A stretch of DNA of 43,253 nucleotides from Candidatus Avidehalobacter gallistercoris (GTDB taxonomy: Bacteria; Bacillota; Dehalobacteriia; UBA4068; UBA4997). Made by a program: the position numbers and the translations under genes. The stretch spans positions 1 through 43,253 of the forward strand of contig DVMH01000017.1 of assembly GCA_018715045.1 (NCBI GenBank), in the 5' to 3' direction. Positions within the stretch are counted from its first letter, which is position 1, and every line of letters begins with the position of its first letter. Below, piece by piece: positions 23,965-34,900 of this stretch. Below the pieces are notes generated by a model. It was not told the DNA's origin, did no database searches, and worked only from the letters and a program-made list of their open reading frames with translations.

Positions 23965-24306
23965 ATGGCAGGGAATGGAAAGTCCTGCTGTCCGGTGGAG
24001 AAAGTTCGGGCAGCGCAGGTGCCGGACGCGGATATTCAGGAAATGTCTTTGATGTTTAAGATGATGGCAGATCCCACGCGCCTGCGGATAATTAACGCGC
24101 TGATGACGTCGGAGATGTGCGTCTGCGATTTGGCCGACGCGCTTGCTATGTCGCAGTCTGCAGTGTCGCACCAGTTGGCGGCGTTGCGCAGCAACCGTCT
24201 GATCAAATTCCGTCGTGACGGCAAGCAGATTTATTATTCGCTGGCTGACGCGCATATCCGTCTGCTGTTCGACCAATGTCTGACCCACGCGCGGGAAGAT
24301 GAATAG
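23965..24306 (+). CDS. ArsR/SmtB-family metal-sensing repressor
   Basis: These winged-helix dimers leave DNA when metal binds. The 113-residue protein has a Cys8-Cys9 pair in its N-terminal arm, EMCVCDLADAL (Cys52, Cys54) in helix 3, the recognition helix SQSAVSHQLAALR and the wing RRDGKQIYYSL. The C-terminal helix holds Asp95, His97, His108 and Glu111 with exactly the D-x-H-x10-H-x2-E spacing of the SmtB alpha-5 zinc site. So ligands for both classic sites, thiolate and alpha-5, are present, as in CadC-type sensors of Cd, Pb or Zn. No cation exporter is adjacent, so its target is unknown. No clear ribosome binding site is seen; it may depend on coupling to the SH3b gene three bases upstream. 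A terminator follows. Confidence 0.88.
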   Translation: MAGNGKSCCPVEKVRAAQVPDADIQEMSLMFKMMADPTRLRIINALMTSEMCVCDLADALAMSQSAVSHQLAALRSNRLIKFRRDGKQIYYSLADAHIRLLFDQCLTHAREDE

Positions 24307-24316
24307 GCAAAAGTTG

Positions 24317-24349
24317 ACCCCGCTGATCAGCACGATCGGCGGGGTTTCT
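24317..24349 (+). terminator. Terminator after the arsR-type gene
   Basis: ACCCCGCTGATC (24317-24328) pairs with GATCGGCGGGGT (24334-24345), 12 pairs with one G-U and loop AGCAC. The T-run is short (TTTCT). Confidence 0.75.
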
Positions 24350-24419
24350 GTATGCTTGCCTTAACGGCACATTCTGTGTGTCATGGTATAAAATGACAGT
24401 GATAGGGAGGGGATGGGGT

Positions 24420-25787
24420 ATGCAGCTCGGCTTTTGGCATATTGTGAGTATCGTGGCGACATTGGCTGCGATTATGGTTTTGGGGGTGCTTTCTGGACGT
24501 CGGGTCAAAAATGCGGCTGACTTCAATACCGGTGGCAAGAGCGCTGGCGCTCTGCTGGTGGCGGGCACTATTACCGGCACAATGATTGGCGGCAGCTCCA
24601 CTATTGGCACGGCGGAGGGGGCTTTCACGCACGGTTTTTCCGCCTGGTGGTTTACGCTTGGCTCGGCTATCGGCTGCCTGCTGCTGGCGTATATTTACGC
24701 TAAACCCATCCGGCAAAGCGACTGCATGACGATTCAGGAGATCATAAGCATGGAATACGGCCAAAAAGCACGGCTGGTGACCTCTGTTTTGACCGGTATT
24801 GGCATTGTGCTGAACATTGTGGCGCAGATTTTGGCGGCTAACGCTCTTTTGGGGTCAATGTTTGGTTTTTCGCCGTTGGTCTGCTCTGTGTTAAGCGTGG
24901 TAATCATGGCCTGCTATGGAATGTTTGGCGGCATTAAAGGCTCGGGGCTTTTGGGGCTGGTTAAACTGTCGTTGCTTTATTTGGCCACGGTTATCTGTGG
25001 CGTGCTTGCCTATGTGATGCAGGGGGGATTCGATGCTTTTGCGGCGGTGCTTCCCAGTGAGGAATATTTCAATATCTTCTCACGCGGGGTGGGTACTGAT
25101 CTGGGGCTGGGGCTGAATGTGGCGCTGGGTATCGTCTCCACCCAGACATATATTCAGGCCGTGATGATCGGCAAAAGCAACCAGGCGGCCAAACGCGGCT
25201 GTCTGCTGGCCGCGGCGCTGGCGCCGCCTGTGGGATTTTTCAGTCTGCTGGTGGGTATGTATATGCGGGCGAATTTCCCGGATATGGCGGCGGCGGAGGC
25301 TTTCCCCGGCTTTATTCTGCAATTCCTGCCCGCACCCCTGGCGGGAGTGTCGCTGGCGACATTGCTGATTGCTGTGGTTGGTACTGGAAGCGGCATGGCG
25401 CTTGGCTTCGGCACCATTATCAGCAGCGATATTTACCAACAGTTTATTAATACCGAAGCGGATGGCAAAAAATTGCTGACCGTTTCACGTGTGATTATTC
25501 TGGTATCGCTGGCGGCTTCGGCGGCGTTCACACTGGGCAATGCCGGCTCGGCTATTTTGGGTTGGGGATCAATGTCGATGGGGCTGCGTGCGGCGGTGCT
25601 GTTGGCTCCCATGACTACGGCGTTGTTTTGGCCGGGCAGGATACGAGCGGGTGCAGCAATACTTTCCAGCGCTTTGGGCGTGACGGCCATGCTGTTGGCT
25701 AATTTGCTGCCGCTGCCGTTTGATACGCTGTTTGTCGGTATGCTGGCAGGTATTTTGGTGCTGGTGATTGACTTTTGCAGAAGATAG
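24420..25787 (+). CDS. Sodium:solute symporter family transporter
   Basis: The SSS family couples sodium entry to uptake of sugars, amino acids, carboxylates and similar solutes. The 455-residue protein has about 12-13 transmembrane helices. TM1-2 includes the conserved ADFNTGGKSAGALLVAGTITG and IGGSSTIGTAEGAF (glycine-rich, sodium-site region), and WWFTLGSAIGCL follows; later helices carry the VVGTGSGMALGFGTIISSDIY stretch typical of the family. The start is ATG at 24420 after AGGGAGGGG; a further in-frame ATG at 24378 lies before that site. TGGTATAAA at 24385 may be an extended -10. The last 355 bases overlap the convergent amidase ORF. The substrate is unknown. Confidence 0.85.
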   Translation: MQLGFWHIVSIVATLAAIMVLGVLSGRRVKNAADFNTGGKSAGALLVAGTITGTMIGGSSTIGTAEGAFTHGFSAWWFTLGSAIGCLLLAYIYAKPIRQSDCMTIQEIISMEYGQKARLVTSVLTGIGIVLNIVAQILAANALLGSMFGFSPLVCSVLSVVIMACYGMFGGIKGSGLLGLVKLSLLYLATVICGVLAYVMQGGFDAFAAVLPSEEYFNIFSRGVGTDLGLGLNVALGIVSTQTYIQAVMIGKSNQAAKRGCLLAAALAPPVGFFSLLVGMYMRANFPDMAAAEAFPGFILQFLPAPLAGVSLATLLIAVVGTGSGMALGFGTIISSDIYQQFINTEADGKKLLTVSRVIILVSLAASAAFTLGNAGSAILGWGSMSMGLRAAVLLAPMTTALFWPGRIRAGAAILSSALGVTAMLLANLLPLPFDTLFVGMLAGILVLVIDFCRR

Positions 25788-27250
25788 CTGGCGGCGGCGT
25801 CGCCCAGCGCGGCGCCGAATTCCTGCTGATAGCTGCTTTGCAGCATTTTTTCATAATCTGCCGGGTTGGACATGAAGGCGTTTTCGACCAGAATGGCAGG
25901 GCAGTTTTCAATTCGTGTTAGCGCCAGATTGGAACGGATGGGGCTGGAACTGTTGTTTTCGTCCAGCCGGGCGAGACGAGAGGCTATGTAATTTGCCGCC
26001 TCTGCCGCCGTATCGTATGTGTAATAGACACGGCAGCCGCGGCTGTCGGCATAATTGGCGGCGGCGTCCAGCGAATTGCTGTGAATGGAGATGCTTAAAT
26101 CGGGCTTGACCTCGGTAATTTTCGCCACACGGTCGGCCAGGGGCAGGGTGTTGTTGTTGCTGCGGGTCATGATGACGGTGGCGCCAAGTTGTTCCAGCCG
26201 CTCTTTGGTGTAGAACGCGATAACGAGATTAATGCTTTTCTCCATTGGGCCGGCGGCGCCGGGAGGGCCGGGCGCACCGGTTTCTTCACCGCCGTGGCCG
26301 GCGTCCAGCATTATCACTGCGCCGCTTAAATCGGGTGCTTTCAGCTCGCCGCCGTTGATGGCGGGGCGCAGCTTGCATCCGATAACCAGATAATTACCGC
26401 GAACCTCTGCATAATAGCCGCAGATGAGCGCGGTGCTTTTTTTATGCAGTTGAATGACGAGGGAATTATCCTCTTCGCCAGGGGTAATGTCGATAGCGTC
26501 AAATAGCGGGTTGACTGGTATCTGCGGTGTAATATCGCTGGTGCAGTCGTACAGGGTGACGGTGAAATACTGTTCGCCGTCGTTTATGGCGTACAGCGTA
26601 TGCTGCGATAGCAGCAGGTTTATTTCGGTGCAGCGGCTGGCAGTCTGAGGCGCCAATGTTACCTCTTGCAGAGTACTGGTGGCATCCAGCGGCGCGTCGT
26701 ATATTTTCAAACTGCTTTGATGAACGAAAGTGTGGTCGGTCAGACAGTAATAATCGCCGTATTCGCCGATGATACGGCATAGCGTGCCCTGGGCGAGGGC
26801 GTTCAGCAACTCCGGCGAGCTGTTGGGCAGCGCCCGGTGGGTGATGTTGTTGCCGCGGACGGCGCCCCAGATAGGAGTATCAAAATATGCCAGATTATCC
26901 CAACTGAATGGAGTGCGGGGGCTGGTGGTCAGCGCTTTCTGGCGGTTGATGTGCAGGGTTTTTGTCTGGCCGTCCTGCGTTAGGGTGAACGTATTTTGGC
27001 CATAATTTAGGCTTGCGCGGGCGGTAAAAAAGCCGTGGCTGGTGGTTTCAATTAGCTGGCCGTCCAGATAAAGCGGCTTGCCCCACGCTGCCGCGCCGAG
27101 AATACTGATTTCGGCTGCTGTCGTTGTCGTGCTCTCCGCCGGGGTGGTGACGATAATTTGCTCGGGATTTTGGTATAGCATGAATGCTGTGGCCGGAGCG
27201 GGCAGCGTGAAAAGTATCGCCAGTGTCAGCGACAATAAGAATTTTTTCAT
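25433..27250 (-). CDS. Secreted N-acetylmuramoyl-L-alanine amidase (Amidase_3) with antisense C-terminal run-on
   Basis: This zinc enzyme cleaves the MurNAc-L-Ala bond in peptidoglycan. Of 605 residues, 1-22 are a signal peptide (ending PATA). About 23-310 is an N-terminal wall or interaction region: a beta-rich part, an SH3-like part near ALPNSSPELLNALAQGTLCR, and an AMIN-like part. About 311-488 is the Amidase_3 domain, with VIMLDAGHGGEE (His ligand), MEKSIN (Glu ligand), LSISIHSN (His ligand) and ILVENAFMSNP (catalytic Glu). The domain ends at SYLLQ, just where the convergent symporter stop lies. The ORF then continues 118 codons antisense to that gene as a Ser/Ala/Pro/Asn-rich tail. The ATG at 27250 is used; GTG at 27259 is possible. 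Neither has a good ribosome binding site. Confidence 0.85.
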   Translation of the reverse strand: MKKFLLSLTLAILFTLPAPATAFMLYQNPEQIIVTTPAESTTTTAAEISILGAAAWGKPLYLDGQLIETTSHGFFTARASLNYGQNTFTLTQDGQTKTLHINRQKALTTSPRTPFSWDNLAYFDTPIWGAVRGNNITHRALPNSSPELLNALAQGTLCRIIGEYGDYYCLTDHTFVHQSSLKIYDAPLDATSTLQEVTLAPQTASRCTEINLLLSQHTLYAINDGEQYFTVTLYDCTSDITPQIPVNPLFDAIDITPGEEDNSLVIQLHKKSTALICGYYAEVRGNYLVIGCKLRPAINGGELKAPDLSGAVIMLDAGHGGEETGAPGPPGAAGPMEKSINLVIAFYTKERLEQLGATVIMTRSNNNTLPLADRVAKITEVKPDLSISIHSNSLDAAANYADSRGCRVYYTYDTAAEAANYIASRLARLDENNSSSPIRSNLALTRIENCPAILVENAFMSNPADYEKMLQSSYQQEFGAALGDAAASYLLQKSITSTKIPASIPTNSVSNGSGSKLANSMAVTPKALESIAAPARILPGQNNAVVMGANSTAARSPIDIDPQPKIAEPALPSVNAAEAASDTRIITRETVSNFLPSASVLINCW

Positions 27251-27327
27251 AATTAGCACTTGCTTGATTTGCGGTTGTTGGTAAATCTTCTGCTGAGTGA
27301 CCTGCGCTAATTACGCGAAAAGAATTG

Positions 27328-27831
27328 TCAATATCTCCCTGTCTTAATTTGTTGGTATGCTTCAATCAGTTCCGTGTCGGTTATGCGGCGATTGGCCGGG
27401 CTGGTGGATGGCAGCCGTATCGCGTCGATACCGGTGGCGGGTGCGCAAAGCTTTTGATATAGCTGCCACGCCTTAAGTCCAGTGCAAAAAACGTGCTGGA
27501 TCCTTGTTTTTGCGATCAGACCGGCGATATCGTTGGGCTGTGGATTGCTGATCGAGCCGTCTGCCGCGCCGTCAATATCGCAGGCGGCTAAAACGTCCCA
27601 AAGAGCGAGCTGGTTATCCAGTATCAGGCGGCGCTTGGCGGCAATATCATCCACTGCCGGAACTGGTACGGCGAAAACCTGCGCCAGCGTCGGCCAGAAG
27701 CGGTTTTGCGGGTGTCCATAATAGAAGCCCTGGCGGCGGCTTTGCGGCGACGGCATTGTGCCCAGCAGCAAAACACATGAATTTTTCGCATAAACCGGTG
27801 GAATTGGGTGAATAACGCAAGACTTGGGCAT
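27328..27831 (-). CDS. DNA-deoxyinosine glycosylase (uracil-DNA glycosylase superfamily, HDG-type)
   Basis: This base-excision enzyme removes hypoxanthine (deaminated adenine) from DNA. The 167-residue protein has the superfamily motif 1 in LLLGTMPSPQSRRQGFYYGHPQNRFWP, a central VFCTGLKAWQLYQ segment, and motif 2 as LPSTSPANRR. The spacing resembles the hypoxanthine-DNA glycosylase branch annotated as DNA-deoxyinosine glycosylase; a Mug-like enzyme is the alternative. The ATG at 27831 has GGAGG nine bases upstream; TTG at 27840 would touch that site. It lies upstream of the amidase on the same strand (77-base gap) and diverges from rpoB. It is one of the few genes in the block with no envelope link. 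Confidence 0.8.
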   Translation of the reverse strand: MPKSCVIHPIPPVYAKNSCVLLLGTMPSPQSRRQGFYYGHPQNRFWPTLAQVFAVPVPAVDDIAAKRRLILDNQLALWDVLAACDIDGAADGSISNPQPNDIAGLIAKTRIQHVFCTGLKAWQLYQKLCAPATGIDAIRLPSTSPANRRITDTELIEAYQQIKTGRY

Positions 27832-27932
27832 ATTGAACAACCTCCCGGGGCTTAATTGTCAATTATATGAAGAAATTGGCGCAAAAAAGCGTAAAACCTG
27901 CCGCAAAATCAAAAAAAAATCCCCGGAAGATA

Positions 27933-27961
27933 TTGACTATCTACTAAATAAATGGTATGAT
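27933..27961 (+). promoter_or_regulatory. SigA-type promoter of rpoBC
   Basis: TTGACT (27933-27938), a 17-base spacer and TATGAT (27956-27961). The expected start is near 27968. This gives rpoBC its own strong promoter, independent of the ribosomal operon it is normally joined to. Confidence 0.75.
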
Positions 27962-27967
27962 ATATTT

Positions 27968-28359
27968 CTGATAAAATTGCTATAAGTATCTCCTCTTATA
28001 TCATTTTCTTATGACAAAATGCTGCTTCAGGGCGGCGGAATCGAGGAAAACCGCGGGTAAGCGACTTGTTTCAGCTTTGGGTGCGGTGGGCTTTGAGTGG
28101 CGGGAAAGAGTTTTGCTGCCTCCGCGTGGCCTTATTATGAGAAAAAATTTTTTGATGGGGTACCGGCAATGCAGCACGCACATTACGGACGCATGAGGTA
28201 TTCTTTTTTAGTATGCTTTGGCAAGACTCTCTGGCCGAAAACTGAACAATTGGTGGTGGGCGAAATTAGCTGCACCAATTTTGGTTTGCCTGGACGCTGG
28301 AGATGCTTGGGCGATGGGCGTGGAACAACGCAGGGATTTTTTTGTGAGGGGTGACGATT
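27968..28359 (+). promoter_or_regulatory. Long untranslated leader of rpoB
   Basis: About 390 bases lie between the promoter and rpoB with no credible gene; short plus-strand frames (at 28011 and 28097) have no family features or ribosome binding sites. The stretch can fold: AATTGGTG (28248-28255) is a perfect complement of CACCAATT (28273-28280), and GCGT/ACGC (near 28317-28330) stands just before a run of seven T. That last hairpin is weak but could be an attenuator immediately before the rpoB ribosome binding site. No known leader family is recognised. Confidence 0.45.
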
Positions 28360-31300
28360 TTGAAAAAAGCCGCAACCAGTACGATCATTGAAAGGCGCAG
28401 CTATGCACGCAACAATCCAATTATGGAAATGCCTAATCTGATTGATGTGCAGCGCAACTCCTATCAGTGGTTTTTGGAAACCGGCCTGCATGAAATCTTT
28501 GAGGACGTGTTCCCCATTCAGGATTTCACCGGCAGTCTGGTGTTGGAATACGTGGGCTATTCTTTGGGGAAGCCGAAGTATGAACTGGACGAGTGTGAAG
28601 AGAGAGACGTCAGCTATGCCGCGCCGCTTAAGGTGGGCGTACGTCTGATCAACAAAGAGACCGGCGAGCTTAAGGAACAGGAAGTGTTTATGGGCGACTT
28701 CCCGTTGATGACTTCCAACGGCACTTTTATCATCAACGGCGCCAAACGCGTGGTTGTAAGCCAGCTGGTGCGTTCCCCCGGCGCGTATTTCAGCGCAGAA
28801 ATGGACGTGAACGGCGTAAAACTTTTCGGCAGCACGTTGATTCCCAACCGTGGCGCATGGCTGGAATTTGAAAGCGACGCCAACGGCTATGTATACGTAC
28901 GCATTGACCGTATGCGTAAGATTCCGGCAACAATTCTGATTCGCGCTTTGGGCTATGACAGCAACGAAGATATTCTGAAGCTTTTTGACGACCACGAGGC
29001 CATCAGGAAGACATTTGAGAAAGACGCCACTGAGAACGTTAGTCAGGCGCTGCTGGAAATTTACCGTAGACTGCGCCCTGGTGAGCCGCCGACGGTTGAT
29101 TCCGCACGCAGCCTGCTGCACGGCTTTTTCTTTGACCCCAAGCGCTATGACTTGGGCAACGTAGGGCGTTATAAGGTGCACAAAAAGTTGCAGAACGGCA
29201 TTACCAAGTTTATGCGTGAGGACGGCAAGGTTTGGAGCGACGAGCAGCAAGCCTATATCGACGGCGAGCTTGCCAGCGAGAAGCTGGCCAACCGCTTTGT
29301 TCGCCATTTAACGCAGATCGATATTGTGAGCTTTCTGCGCTATTTCCTCGAGGTCATGGATGGCAAGCATGAGCCGGATGATATTGACCATTTGGGCAAC
29401 CGCCGCCTGCGCTCGGTGGGCGAGCTGCTGCAAAACCAGTTTCGTATTGGTCTGGCGCGTATGGAGCGTGTCGTTAAAGAACGCATGACTATTCAGGATA
29501 CCGAGGTTATCACACCGCAGATGTTGGTGAATATTCGCCCGGTGCAGGCTGCGGTCAAAGAGTTTTTCGGTTCTTCTCAGCTCTCTCAGTTTATGGATCA
29601 GCACAACCCGCTTTCTGAGCTGACGCATAAGCGCCGTCTTTCGGCGCTTGGCCCCGGCGGTCTTTCGCGTGAGCGTGCTGGTTTTGAGGTGCGCGACGTT
29701 CATCACAGCCACTATGGCCGTATGTGTCCGATCGAGACTCCTGAAGGGCCGAACATTGGTCTGATCGGCTCGCTGGCTAATTATGCGCGCATTAATGAGT
29801 ATGGCTTTGTGGAGACGCCGTATCGCCGGGTGATTGACTGCCAGGTGACTGATCAGATCGATTATCTGGTGGCCGATGAAGAGGACAATTATGTTATCGC
29901 GCAGGCGAATGAGCCGGTGGACGAGAATGGCCGTTTGATCAACAGCCGCGTTAATGCCCGCCATGCCAACGATATTTTTGTGGCGGCGGCGGAAGATATC
30001 AATTATATGGACGTTTCTGCCCAGCAGCTGATTTCAGTGGGCACTTCGCTAATCCCCTTTTTGGAGCATGACGACGCCAACCGGGCTTTGATGGGTGCGA
30101 ATATGCAGCGTCAGGCTGTGCCGCTTATGGTGACCGAAGCCCCGTTCGTGGGCACCGGCATGGAGATCAAGGCCGGTCTTGACTCCGGCGTTTGCGAACT
30201 GGCCGGCGGTGATGGTACGATCACCCGCGTCTGTGGCGACGAAATCGTTTTGCAGCGGGACGATGGCGAGATTGAAGTGCATAAATTGCAGAAATTCAAG
30301 CGCTCCAACCAGGGCACCTGCGTTAATCAGAAGCCCATTGTAAGCCTTGGCCAGCGTGTGTATAAGGGTGACCCGATCGCGGACGGACCATCCACTGACC
30401 ACGGTGAGCTGTCTCTGGGACGTAATGCTTTGGTGGCGTTTATGACTTGGGAGGGCTATAACTATGAGGACGCGGTTCTGCTGAGTGAGGAACTGGTCAA
30501 AAACGATATTTACACTTCTATTCATATTGAAGAATACGAATGTGACGCGCGTGACACAAAACTGGGACCAGAGGAAATAACCCGCGAGATTCCTAACGTT
30601 AGCGACGACGTTTTGAAAGATCTGGACGAAAACGGCATTATTCGCATTGGCGCTGAGGTGCGTCCCGGCGATATTCTGGTGGGCAAGGTGACGCCCAAGG
30701 GCGAGACTGAGCTGACGGCGGAGGAACGCTTGCTGCGCGCCATTTTTGGCGAGAAAGCGCGCGAGGTGCGCGACACCTCTCTCCGCGTGCCGCACGGTGA
30801 GGCCGGCAAAATCGTGGATGTTAAGCTTTTCGACGCAGCCAAAGGCGATGAACTGCCACCGGGCGTGCACCATCTGGTGCGTATTTATATTGCCCAGAAA
30901 CGTAAGATTTCCGTTGGTGACAAGATGGCTGGCCGCCACGGCAACAAGGGCGTAGTTTCCCGCGTTCTGCCGGTTGAGGATATGCCGTTCCTGCCGGACG
31001 GCACTCCGGTGCAGATTGTGTTGAACCCTCTTGGTGTGCCTTCGCGTATGAACATCGGCCAGATTCTGGAAACCCACTTGGGCATGGCTGCCAAGAAGTT
31101 GGGGCTGCACATTGCCACCCCGGTATTCGACGGCGCCAATGACGACGATATTGCTGCCACACTGGCCGAGGCCGGTATGCGCGAGGATGCGAAGACTATC
31201 GTTTATGATGGACGCACGGGCGAGCCCTTTGACAGCCCGGTGACCGTGGGTTATATGTACTATTTGAAGCTTCACCATTTGGTAGACGATAAAATTCACG

Positions 31301-31929
31301 CGCGTTCCACTGGTCCGTACTCGCTGGTCACACAACAGCCTCTGGGCGGCAAAGCGCAGTTCGGCGGTCAGCGCTTCGGCGAGATGGAAGTTTGGGCTCT
31401 GGAGGCTTACGGCGCGGCTTATACCTTGCAGGAAATTCTGACGGTGAAATCCGACGATATTACCGGGCGTGTGCGTACCTATGAGGCGATCGTTAAGGGC
31501 GAGAATGTGCCGGAGCCTGGTATTCCCGAATCCTTTAAGGTGCTGATGCGCGAATTGCAGAGCCTGTGTTTGGATGTGAATATTCTGGATAAGAACAACG
31601 AGGTCGTTGACATCAAGGAAGACGACGATTTTGACGGCAATGTGCTGGAGACGGCGCGCGAGCTTGACCTTGACCTGGGGCTGGGCGATGATACGTCTGA
31701 CGCAGGGGAGGCTGATGCATTGCTGGAGAGCGACGCTGAAGTTGACGATTATGCTGACGAGGTGGATTTTGACAGCCTGAATCCCGGTGAGTTGGAAAAC
31801 CTGGAAAAAGAGCTTGACCAGTACAAGGTTGACGCCGACAGTATGGCAGACGCTATCGAGAGTCTGGAAACGCTCCGCGAGGCTGATGTTTTGCAAGATT
31901 ATAACCTTGATTTGGACGACGACGAATAA
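28360..31929 (+). CDS. rpoB: DNA-directed RNA polymerase subunit beta
   Basis: The beta subunit forms half of the catalytic cleft. The 1189-residue protein has the beta lobes and protrusion and the rifampicin pocket: [12 protein letters not shown], then [21 protein letters not shown], with susceptible-type Asp, His and Ser at the usual resistance positions. [52 protein letters not shown] and the C-terminal [22 protein letters not shown] clamp segment follow. About 102 extra residues follow the canonical end, very rich in Asp and Glu. I choose TTG at 28360, six bases after GAGGGGTG; GTG at 28351 overlaps that site. rpoC follows after 56 bases. Unlike most bacteria, rplL is not upstream. Confidence 0.97.
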
Positions 31930-31985
31930 GCCGGACGCAAGCGAAAGCAGTAAATGTGATAAATTTGAGAGGGGGAGAACCCTTG

Positions 31986-34900
31986 ATGGAAGAAAAAACT
32001 ATGGAATCGCATCAGCACGGCCTGGACGCTAACCGTTTTGACCGTATGCAGATAAAAATGGCTTCGCCGGAACAGATTTTGGAGTGGTCTTACGGCGAGG
32101 TGAAAAAACCGGAAACTATCAACTATCGCACGTTGAAGCCAGAGCGCGACGGCCTGTTCTGTGAACGCATTTTCGGCCCCACGCGTGACTGGGAATGTCA
32201 CTGCGGCAAATATAAGCGTATCCGCTATAAGGGCGTTGTCTGTGACCGTTGCGGCGTGGAAGTTACCCGCGCCAAAGTGCGCCGCGAACGCATGGGGCAT
32301 ATTCAGCTGGCTGCACCTGTCAGCCATATCTGGTATTTTAAGGGTATTCCCAGCCGCATGGGCCTTTTGCTGAACATTTCGCCCCGCGTGCTGGAAAAGG
32401 TGCTTTATTTCGTATCTTATATCGTGCTTGATCCCGGTGACACTGATCTGGAGTTTAAGCAGGTGCTTTCCGAGCAGGAATACCGCGAGGCGCGCGATCA
32501 GTACGGCGACCGTTTTGACGCTGGCATGGGTGCGGAAAGCATTAAAAAGATTTTGCAGGGCGTTGATTTGCAGGCGCTGGACGAGGAGCTGCGTGCTGAG
32601 CTGAAAGAAGTCAGCGGCCAGCGTAAGGTGAAAGCTATCCGCCGCCTGGAAGTGGTGGAGGCGTTTTTGCAGAGCGGCAACAAGCCGGAATGGATGATCT
32701 TGGACGTTGTGCCGGTGATTCCGCCGGAACTGCGTCCGATGGTGCAGCTGGATGGCGGGCGTTTCGCTACCAGCGACCTGAACGATCTTTACCGCCGCGT
32801 TATCAATCGCAACAACCGTCTGCGCCGCCTGCTTGATTTGGGCGCGCCGGATATTATCGTGCGCAATGAGAAGCGTATGTTGCAGGAAGCAGTTGACGCT
32901 TTGATCGACAATGGCCGTCGCGGCCGTCCGGTGGTTGGGCCCGGCAACCGTCCGCTGAAATCGCTCTCTGATTTATTAAAGGGCAAGCAGGGTCGTTTTC
33001 GTCAGAACCTGCTGGGTAAACGCGTTGACTATTCCGGCCGTTCCGTTATCGTGGTGGGGCCGGAGCTGAAAATGCACCAGTGCGGCCTGCCCAAGGAAAT
33101 GGCGCTGGAGCTTTTCAAACCGTTTGTGATGAAGCGGCTGGTGCATGACGGCATGGCGCAGAACATCAAAAACGCTAAGCGTATGGTTGAGCGCGTTCGC
33201 CCCGAGGTTTGGGACGTGTTGGAGGATGTTATCAAGGAACACCCTGTGCTTCTGAACCGCGCGCCTACGCTGCACCGTTTGGGTATTCAGGCGTTTGAGC
33301 CGATTTTGGTGGAAGGCCGCGCGCTGAAATTGCATCCGCTGGTTTGTACCGCGTATAACGCTGACTTTGATGGCGACCAGATGGCCGTGCACGTACCGCT
33401 TTCCGCTGAGGCGCAGGCAGAGGCACGCGTACTGATGTTATCCTCCAACAATATTTTGAATCCAAAAGACGGCCGCCCGGTGGCTTCGCCAACGCAGGAT
33501 ATGGTTTTAGGCTCTTACTACCTGACCATTATCCGCGATACCAATAAATATGAGCCTGGCAAGGCGCATGTATACAGCGGCTTCAACGAGGCTTACCGTT
33601 CCTATGTGAACGGCGACCTTGATATGCATGATTGGATAGAGATACCGAAGCCGGAGGAATGGGATACCGTTTGGATAGATAAAGATACCGAAATTCCTTT
33701 CCCCAAGGACGAACATGGCCGCTATAAGCGTTTGGTGACCAGTCTTGGCCGCCTGATTTTCAATTATGAAATTCCGATGTCGCGCGAGATGGGCTTCTAT
33801 AATATCGAATGCGGTAAGAAGATGCTGGGTGTGCTGGTTGACCGCTGCTATCGCCGGCAGGGTATCAGCAAGACTGCGGAATTCTTGGACGGTATTAAGG
33901 CCGTGGGCTACAAATATTCCACCAAGGCTGGTATCACTGTGGGCGTGGGCGATATTCTGATTCCGCCGGAAAAAGCGGAGATCATGGCTAACGCTGAAAA
34001 AGAGGTTCTGGTGATTGAGGATCAGTATGAAATGGGTCTGATAACCGAGGAAGAGCGCTATCGCAGCGTGATTAAGATCTGGGAGGGTGCGACCGACGAC
34101 GTTACCAGCCATCTGATGGACAGCCTTGATCCGTTTAACCCAATCTTCATGATGGCTAATTCCGGCGCGCGCGGCAACGTGCAGCAGATACGTCAGCTGG
34201 CCGGCCTGCGCGGTTTGATGGCCGACACGACCGGTCGTATCATCGACTTGCCGATCAAGGCGAACTTCCGCGAGGGCTTATCCGTGCTGGAATTTTTTAT
34301 CTCGGCACACGGCGCCCGCAAGGGCTTGGCCGACACAGCATTGCGTACCGCCGACTCTGGCTATCTGACCCGCCGTCTGGTGGACGTGGCGCAGGACGTT
34401 ATCGTGCGCGAGCATGACTGCGGCGATACCGAGGGCATTTGGGTCAAGGAGATCAAGGGTATTGAGAAACTCTCTGAGCGTATTGAAGGCCGCTATCTGA
34501 ATCAGGATATTATTAATAAGGAAACTGGTGAGGTTATTGCTCACCGCGACACCCTGGTGGATATGGCGCTGGCGGATAAGATCGTTGATTATCTCAATAC
34601 TTTGCCCGAAGTGGAGCAGCAGGTGAATATCCGTTCGGTTTTGACCTGTCATACCCAGCATGGCGTGTGCAGCAAGTGCTATGGCCGGAATCTGGCCACC
34701 GGCGGCCATGTGGATATCGGTGAGGCTGTGGGCACCATTGCAGCGCAATCCATCGGCGAACCCGGCACCCAGCTGACCATGCGTACATTTCATACCGGCG
34801 GTATTGCCGGCGGCGATATTACTCAGGGTCTGCCGCGTGTTGAGGAAATTTTTGAGGCCAGAAAGCCGAAAGGCCAGTGCCTTATTGCCAAGGAAGACGG

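Follow-up and report, generated by a model that had tools for sequence, protein, structure and literature searches.

How a long overlap between two convergent genes arises, and whether the stretch of protein gained in this way becomes a functional part or is only carried along, is the question raised by a locus of Candidatus Avidehalobacter gallistercoris. Here an amidase gene on the minus strand meets a gene of the sodium:solute symporter family (SSF) on the plus strand, and both strands are coding over 355 nt (25433-25787). All positions refer to the window, that is, the whole stretch of 43,253 nucleotides that was analysed. We searched 61 genomes, all of them draft assemblies, of which nine belong to the genus; the window's own genome is denoted G000.

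The gene pair and its overlap

Our analysis bore out the claim of an earlier note on this DNA that the amidase ORF runs antisense through the convergent symporter gene to 25433. This ORF (25433-27259, minus strand) is free of stops down to 25433 and encodes 608 aa counted from the first GTG. The start is likely the ATG at 27250, which gives 605 aa with a signal-peptide-like N-terminus. The symporter ORF occupies 24378-25787 on the plus strand, with a likely start at the ATG at 24420 and its stop at 25785-25787. The two are thus protein genes with overlapping coding 3′ ends, and both matched Pfam families: residues 316-488 of the amidase (window 26314-25796) were assigned to Amidase_3 (E 5.2e-35), and the symporter, present in 9/9 genomes of the genus, to SSF (E 2e-23). 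The amidase domain had been said to end at the symporter stop, and it was found to end about nine bases before it. The tail beyond the domain, described earlier as rich in Ser, Ala, Pro and Asn and unlike a domain, is indeed composed to 60% of S/P/T/A/N/Q/G, and no match to it was found in Pfam or NCBIfam. The features of the locus are as follows.

25433-27250, minus strand: N-acetylmuramoyl-L-alanine amidase with an antisense-encoded C-terminal tail, 605 aa; the orthologues in G002 and G004 end alike
25796-26314, minus strand: Amidase_3 domain (PF01520), E 5.2e-35, residues 316-488 of 608
25436-25774, minus strand: antisense-encoded tail, about 113 aa, 60% S/P/T/A/N/Q/G, no family match
24420-25787, plus strand: SSF (sodium:solute symporter family) gene, E 2e-23
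25433-25787, both strands: convergent overlap of the two ORFs, 355 nt, third codon positions paired, phase 123:213
25773-25782, no strand: inferred breakpoint zone; symporter homology stops at ID, amidase homology at YLL
25433-25435, minus strand: amidase stop TAA, from the symporter Ile-Tyr codons ATT TAC; antisense stop in this column in 9/9 genomes
25785-25787, plus strand: symporter stop TAG, from the amidase Ser-Tyr codons AGC TAT; TAA in G002 and G004
27328-27840, minus strand: uracil-DNA-glycosylase superfamily gene, the upstream neighbour of the amidase
24316-24346, no strand: hairpin between an ArsR-type gene and the symporter, z -5.8 (plus) and -3.9 (minus)

Relatives with and without the fusion

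An amidase with the same stop-free tail was found in two further genomes, G002 (80% identity, residues 4-608) and G004 (63%, residues 4-602). In both, the symporter lies opposite the amidase and has the FCRR-stop end common to all three fused species, which is encoded opposite YLLQK of the amidase. Being kept in other species, the overlap is not a misannotation. In a tree of RpoB and RpoC (15 genomes, 2273 columns), G000, G002 and G004 were monophyletic with 98% UFBoot, while the remaining basal splits of the genus were weak (53% and 39%). The three fused species form one clade, and the fusion is therefore one old event and not an assembly error.

All four unfused orthologues of the amidase (G001, G005, G006 and G007) have their own stop and a different end. 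A C-terminal Cu_amine_oxidN1 domain (PF07833) was found in all three that were scanned (G001, G005 and G006, E about 1e-28), and in G007 the same region aligns. The fused amidases share with these Amidase_3 plus Cu_amine_oxidN1 proteins an orthologous N-terminal part and amidase domain, and also the glycosylase and rpoB neighbours where the contig reaches: the amidase is beside both genes in G001, G005 and G007, and the amidase contig of G006 starts with the end of the glycosylase gene. Unlike them, the fused clade has the antisense tail in place of an own stop and PF07833; the 3′ end has changed with respect to the orthologues, with new sequence beyond the domain where the unfused end lies in another domain. 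The rpoB match at G005:C8:12414-15989 was reported with one TAA inside.

In G001, G005, G006 and G007 the symporter is located elsewhere, away from the amidase. G008 lacks the amidase, and its symporter directly faces the glycosylase gene and rpoB. The symporter-amidase neighbourhood in an unfused form is therefore absent from all five. A hairpin with a T-run is kept in G008 between symporter and glycosylase (L052 5523-5569), where the amidase is missing. No full-length amidase match was found in G003, whose genome is only 81% complete, and a search of 35 genomes of the order, of which 26 lie outside the genus, found no full-length relatives beyond it.

The ends of the symporters are longer and different in 6/6 unfused species. 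The shared symporter sequence ends at ID, after which the unfused species add at least seven further residues of their own, and the shared amidase sequence ends at YLL; the join therefore lies within about ten bases, 25773-25782. Neither natural end is left in the fused clade. Terminator-like hairpins were found 3′ of the symporter in G008 and G001, the two that were folded, and hairpin-like sequence was seen by eye after the symporter in G007 and G003 and not in G005 or G006. The comparison of amidase C-termini and of the intergenic gap in relatives, which the earlier note had proposed, thus separates G002 and G004, fused as in G000, from the unfused species with their different ends.

Phase, stop codons and openness of the antisense frame

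In the overlap, third codon positions pair with each other and first positions with second positions. A stop then corresponds to a Tyr codon after a pyrimidine-ending codon, or to CAN after a T-ending codon, and each gene has its stop in a tyrosine codon of the partner. That of the amidase (TTA at 25433-25435) consists of the third base of the symporter Ile codon ATT and the TA of the Tyr codon TAC. The symporter stop is given by the amidase codons AGC TAT in G000, AAT TAC in G002 and GCT TAT in G004. The residue before this Tyr is accordingly Ser, Asn or Ala, always with a pyrimidine as the last base because the symporter stop demands it. The four unfused amidases have Glu (GAA) at this position, from which no stop results.

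The last 112 codons of the G000 symporter before the junction are devoid of Tyr, His and Gln, except for two Gln (DIYQQ) by the terminal Tyr, so that the first 110 tail codons cannot hold a stop. TAN and CAN codons are thus as scarce in this part of the symporter as noticed earlier, these two Gln being the only ones before the terminal Tyr. Fused or not, eight of the nine genomes of the genus are open in the same antisense phase, G001 having one internal stop, and in all nine the frame ends at the same Tyr. This supports the earlier suggestion that the frame is open by chance; given the amino acids of the symporter, its openness needs no special explanation. Very long antisense open frames were also observed opposite rpoB, of about 650 codons in the window (30049-31998, minus strand) and of about 810 codons in L050 (5140-7572, minus strand), stop to stop. 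They show that antisense frames easily stay open in this genus.

Selection on the tail

Ordinary dN/dS of the tail would mislead here, since its values of 0.16-0.34 in the fused pairs look like selection. In the same pairs, an antisense dN/dS of 0.18-0.39 was obtained for the same phase read opposite symporter sequence upstream of the overlap, in which stops interrupt the frame and no protein would be expected; the tail region in unfused pairs gave 0.23-0.64. In the three fused pairs, which come from only three genomes, share branches and are not independent, the divergence at fourfold sites of the symporter was not lower in the overlap than upstream (overlap/upstream 0.35/0.32, 0.46/0.45 and 0.37/0.33). 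Among the silent changes in the symporter, 6/26, 6/24 and 5/19 in the overlap and 23/85, 20/85 and 14/52 upstream also changed the antisense residue (Fisher P 0.80, 1.00 and 1.00). The antisense identity was 93, 72 and 81 of 112, against 90.9, 70.7 and 80.0 in a null made by resampling codon pairs (P 0.26, 0.37 and 0.42). The upstream control stretch exceeds this null more than the tail does in the fused pairs (P 0.004-0.07), which indicates that the null is slightly off; this only weakens any case for the tail. An omega of 0.2 or less was rejected in each fused pair (P 0.002-0.008), and an omega of 0.5 was not.

The four tests thus revealed no clear selection on the tail beyond that on the symporter; weak constraint, with omega about 0.5, remains compatible with them. 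A functional overprinted coding sequence would show selection on the second frame beyond that on the first, and none of the four tests gave clear support for this. Antisense dN/dS in the tail, divided by that upstream, was 0.87-1.0 in the three fused pairs versus 1.3-2.3 in six unfused pairs, in a comparison where pairs share branches and four of the six unfused ones fall within one clade. This could be a faint sign of constraint, or may come from an upstream part that is rather well conserved in the G001/G005/G006/G007 clade. The earlier note had named a functional tail conserved in relatives as evidence against its reading; the tail is conserved no more than the symporter forces it to be, with this one comparison pointing weakly the other way. 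The tail thus has the look of a by-product that is tolerated, not of a new part with a function. The AlphaFold model was poor throughout (mean pLDDT 46, from 7 sequences), and the tail was the lowest part at about 20, with almost no secondary structure, which hints that it may be disordered.

Evolution of the amidase body and other explanations

The amidase domain had a dN/dS of 0.21-0.30 in the three fused pairs versus 0.03-0.11 in four unfused pairs, and its N-terminal part 0.18-0.40 versus 0.05-0.19. The gap was smaller in the glycosylase (0.11-0.18 versus 0.07-0.14) and in the symporter (0.06-0.19 versus 0.03-0.07); all of these are pairwise estimates, some with dS above 1, and the effect size is rough. 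With dN/dS raised in the fused clade, and less so in the neighbours, the amidase has been kept since the genes fused, but in a somewhat relaxed or adapting state.

These values might also be read as those of a decaying gene, whose end was destroyed and whose open frame is a slowly dying relic; the absence of the amidase from G008 and of a full-length orthologue from G003 would fit with this. But the dN/dS of the amidase is still well under 1, the adjacent symporter also has somewhat higher values in the fused clade, and the frame is intact in all three species with the signal-peptide-like start retained. The fused amidases have also kept DAGHGG, the E in EK, IHSNS and the E in ENAF, which we take to be the Zn-ligand and catalytic-Glu motifs. 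We therefore regard decay as unlikely. That the tail was instead recruited, as a linker or wall-contact segment under selection in place of the lost Cu_amine_oxidN1 domain, is in our view improbable. Its retention in all three fused species, its low plain dN/dS and the fact that its antisense dN/dS is not raised as in the unfused pairs all speak for recruitment, but its conservation is wholly predicted by the symporter sequence, unfused species have a similar frame that is likewise open, the silent rate does not drop within the overlap, tail-altering silent changes are as frequent as in the background, and strong constraint was rejected in each pair. It is equally doubtful that the reverse strand of a membrane-transporter gene, in a pair where the stop of each gene is locked into a Tyr codon of the other, would have supplied a secreted wall enzyme with a ready-made hydrophilic tail that took the place of a lost domain and now has a role.

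In draft assemblies one could suspect that a stop was missed at the junction, that a frameshift lies there or that the join is chimeric, the more so as most long overlaps are misannotations according to the part of PMC2478687 that deals with them. However, the junction, the symporter end and the frame are the same in three genomes whose amidases are 63-80% identical. Such an error, for which reads with a stop or frameshift would have been the sign, is extremely improbable and for practical purposes excluded by the two further species.

Transcription signals

Eleven terminator-like sites were predicted in 24200-28400, where 6.7 were expected from shuffles. All were on the plus strand, and none of the 11 on the minus strand. 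The hairpin at about 24316-24346 is strong and folds well on both strands. It is a matter of speculation that this hairpin might be the end point of the amidase transcript, which would then lie opposite the whole symporter. Convergent transcripts might, as the earlier note suggests, form long duplex RNA here. Overlapping transcription and the excludon concept are reportedly treated in published work. Another hairpin, GCTGC-TTT-GCAGC at 25832-25844 on the plus strand, is followed by T6 and lies 45 bases after the symporter stop, inside the amidase gene. We rejected it as a conserved new terminator: it is present in G000 but broken in G002 and G004, the other two fused species.

Origin of the fusion

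Very probably, a deletion or an equivalent rearrangement joined the convergent 3′ ends, and the tail persists without detectable selection of its own. The proposal that a deletion had joined the two ends and removed the amidase stop and the terminators is thus supported by the native ends missing in the fused clade; we infer deletion as the event, loss of the domain rather than its absence from the outset, and that the tail is translated. Such an event would have brought the two convergent genes together by their 3′ parts in the common ancestor of the three species. The amidase would have lost its stop and probably its C-terminal Cu_amine_oxidN1 domain, and the symporter its last few codons and its stop, with the intervening terminators going too. 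Each frame would then have run on in the opposite strand of the partner to a Tyr codon after a pyrimidine-ending codon. The symporter would have been barely altered, with about four new residues, while the amidase would have gained about 113 hydrophilic residues rich in Ser, Ala, Pro and Asn. The frame would stay open through the protein sequence of the symporter, and the tail would persist on that account. Either architecture of the amidase may be the ancestral one, since beyond the fused clade the splits within the genus are weak, as given above.

That stop loss can give rise to long convergent overlaps has been described before, and the present pair is a well-resolved example. In the part of Palleja, Harrington and Bork 2008 (PMC2478687) concerned with convergent overlaps, those longer than 60 nt were possibly real in 54/178 cases, mostly only in very close species, and 3′-end extension is described there, with stop deletion named as a route to long convergent overlaps. 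As far as those cases are described, our pair resembles them in being convergent, overlapping by more than 60 nt and having one 3′ end that is new with respect to orthologues. It differs in that both genes lost their stops at a single junction, the amidase lacks a folded C-terminal domain, and three species at 63-80% amidase identity share the overlap. The section of PMC2174442 on overlap phases reports that phase 123:213 becomes more and more common in convergent overlaps that are long, and presents a model of stop loss. The phase here is that of its stop-codon-mutation (read-through) model; unlike the point change or deletion of one stop in that model as outlined, the junction here replaced the ends of both genes. 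Stop movement as a source of convergent overlaps is also mentioned in an excerpt of PMC4161906. Literature searches not targeted to this organism listed no paper on this particular gene pair, and among the papers listed for Cu_amine_oxidN1 with amidase none contained the name of the domain.

The locus provides a clean, tree-placed case of the origin of long convergent overlaps. It is also a warning that, in the phase with paired third positions, a purely passive antisense tail has a protein identity and dN/dS that mimic purifying selection. Tests for overprinted genes therefore need a same-phase antisense control such as the one used here.
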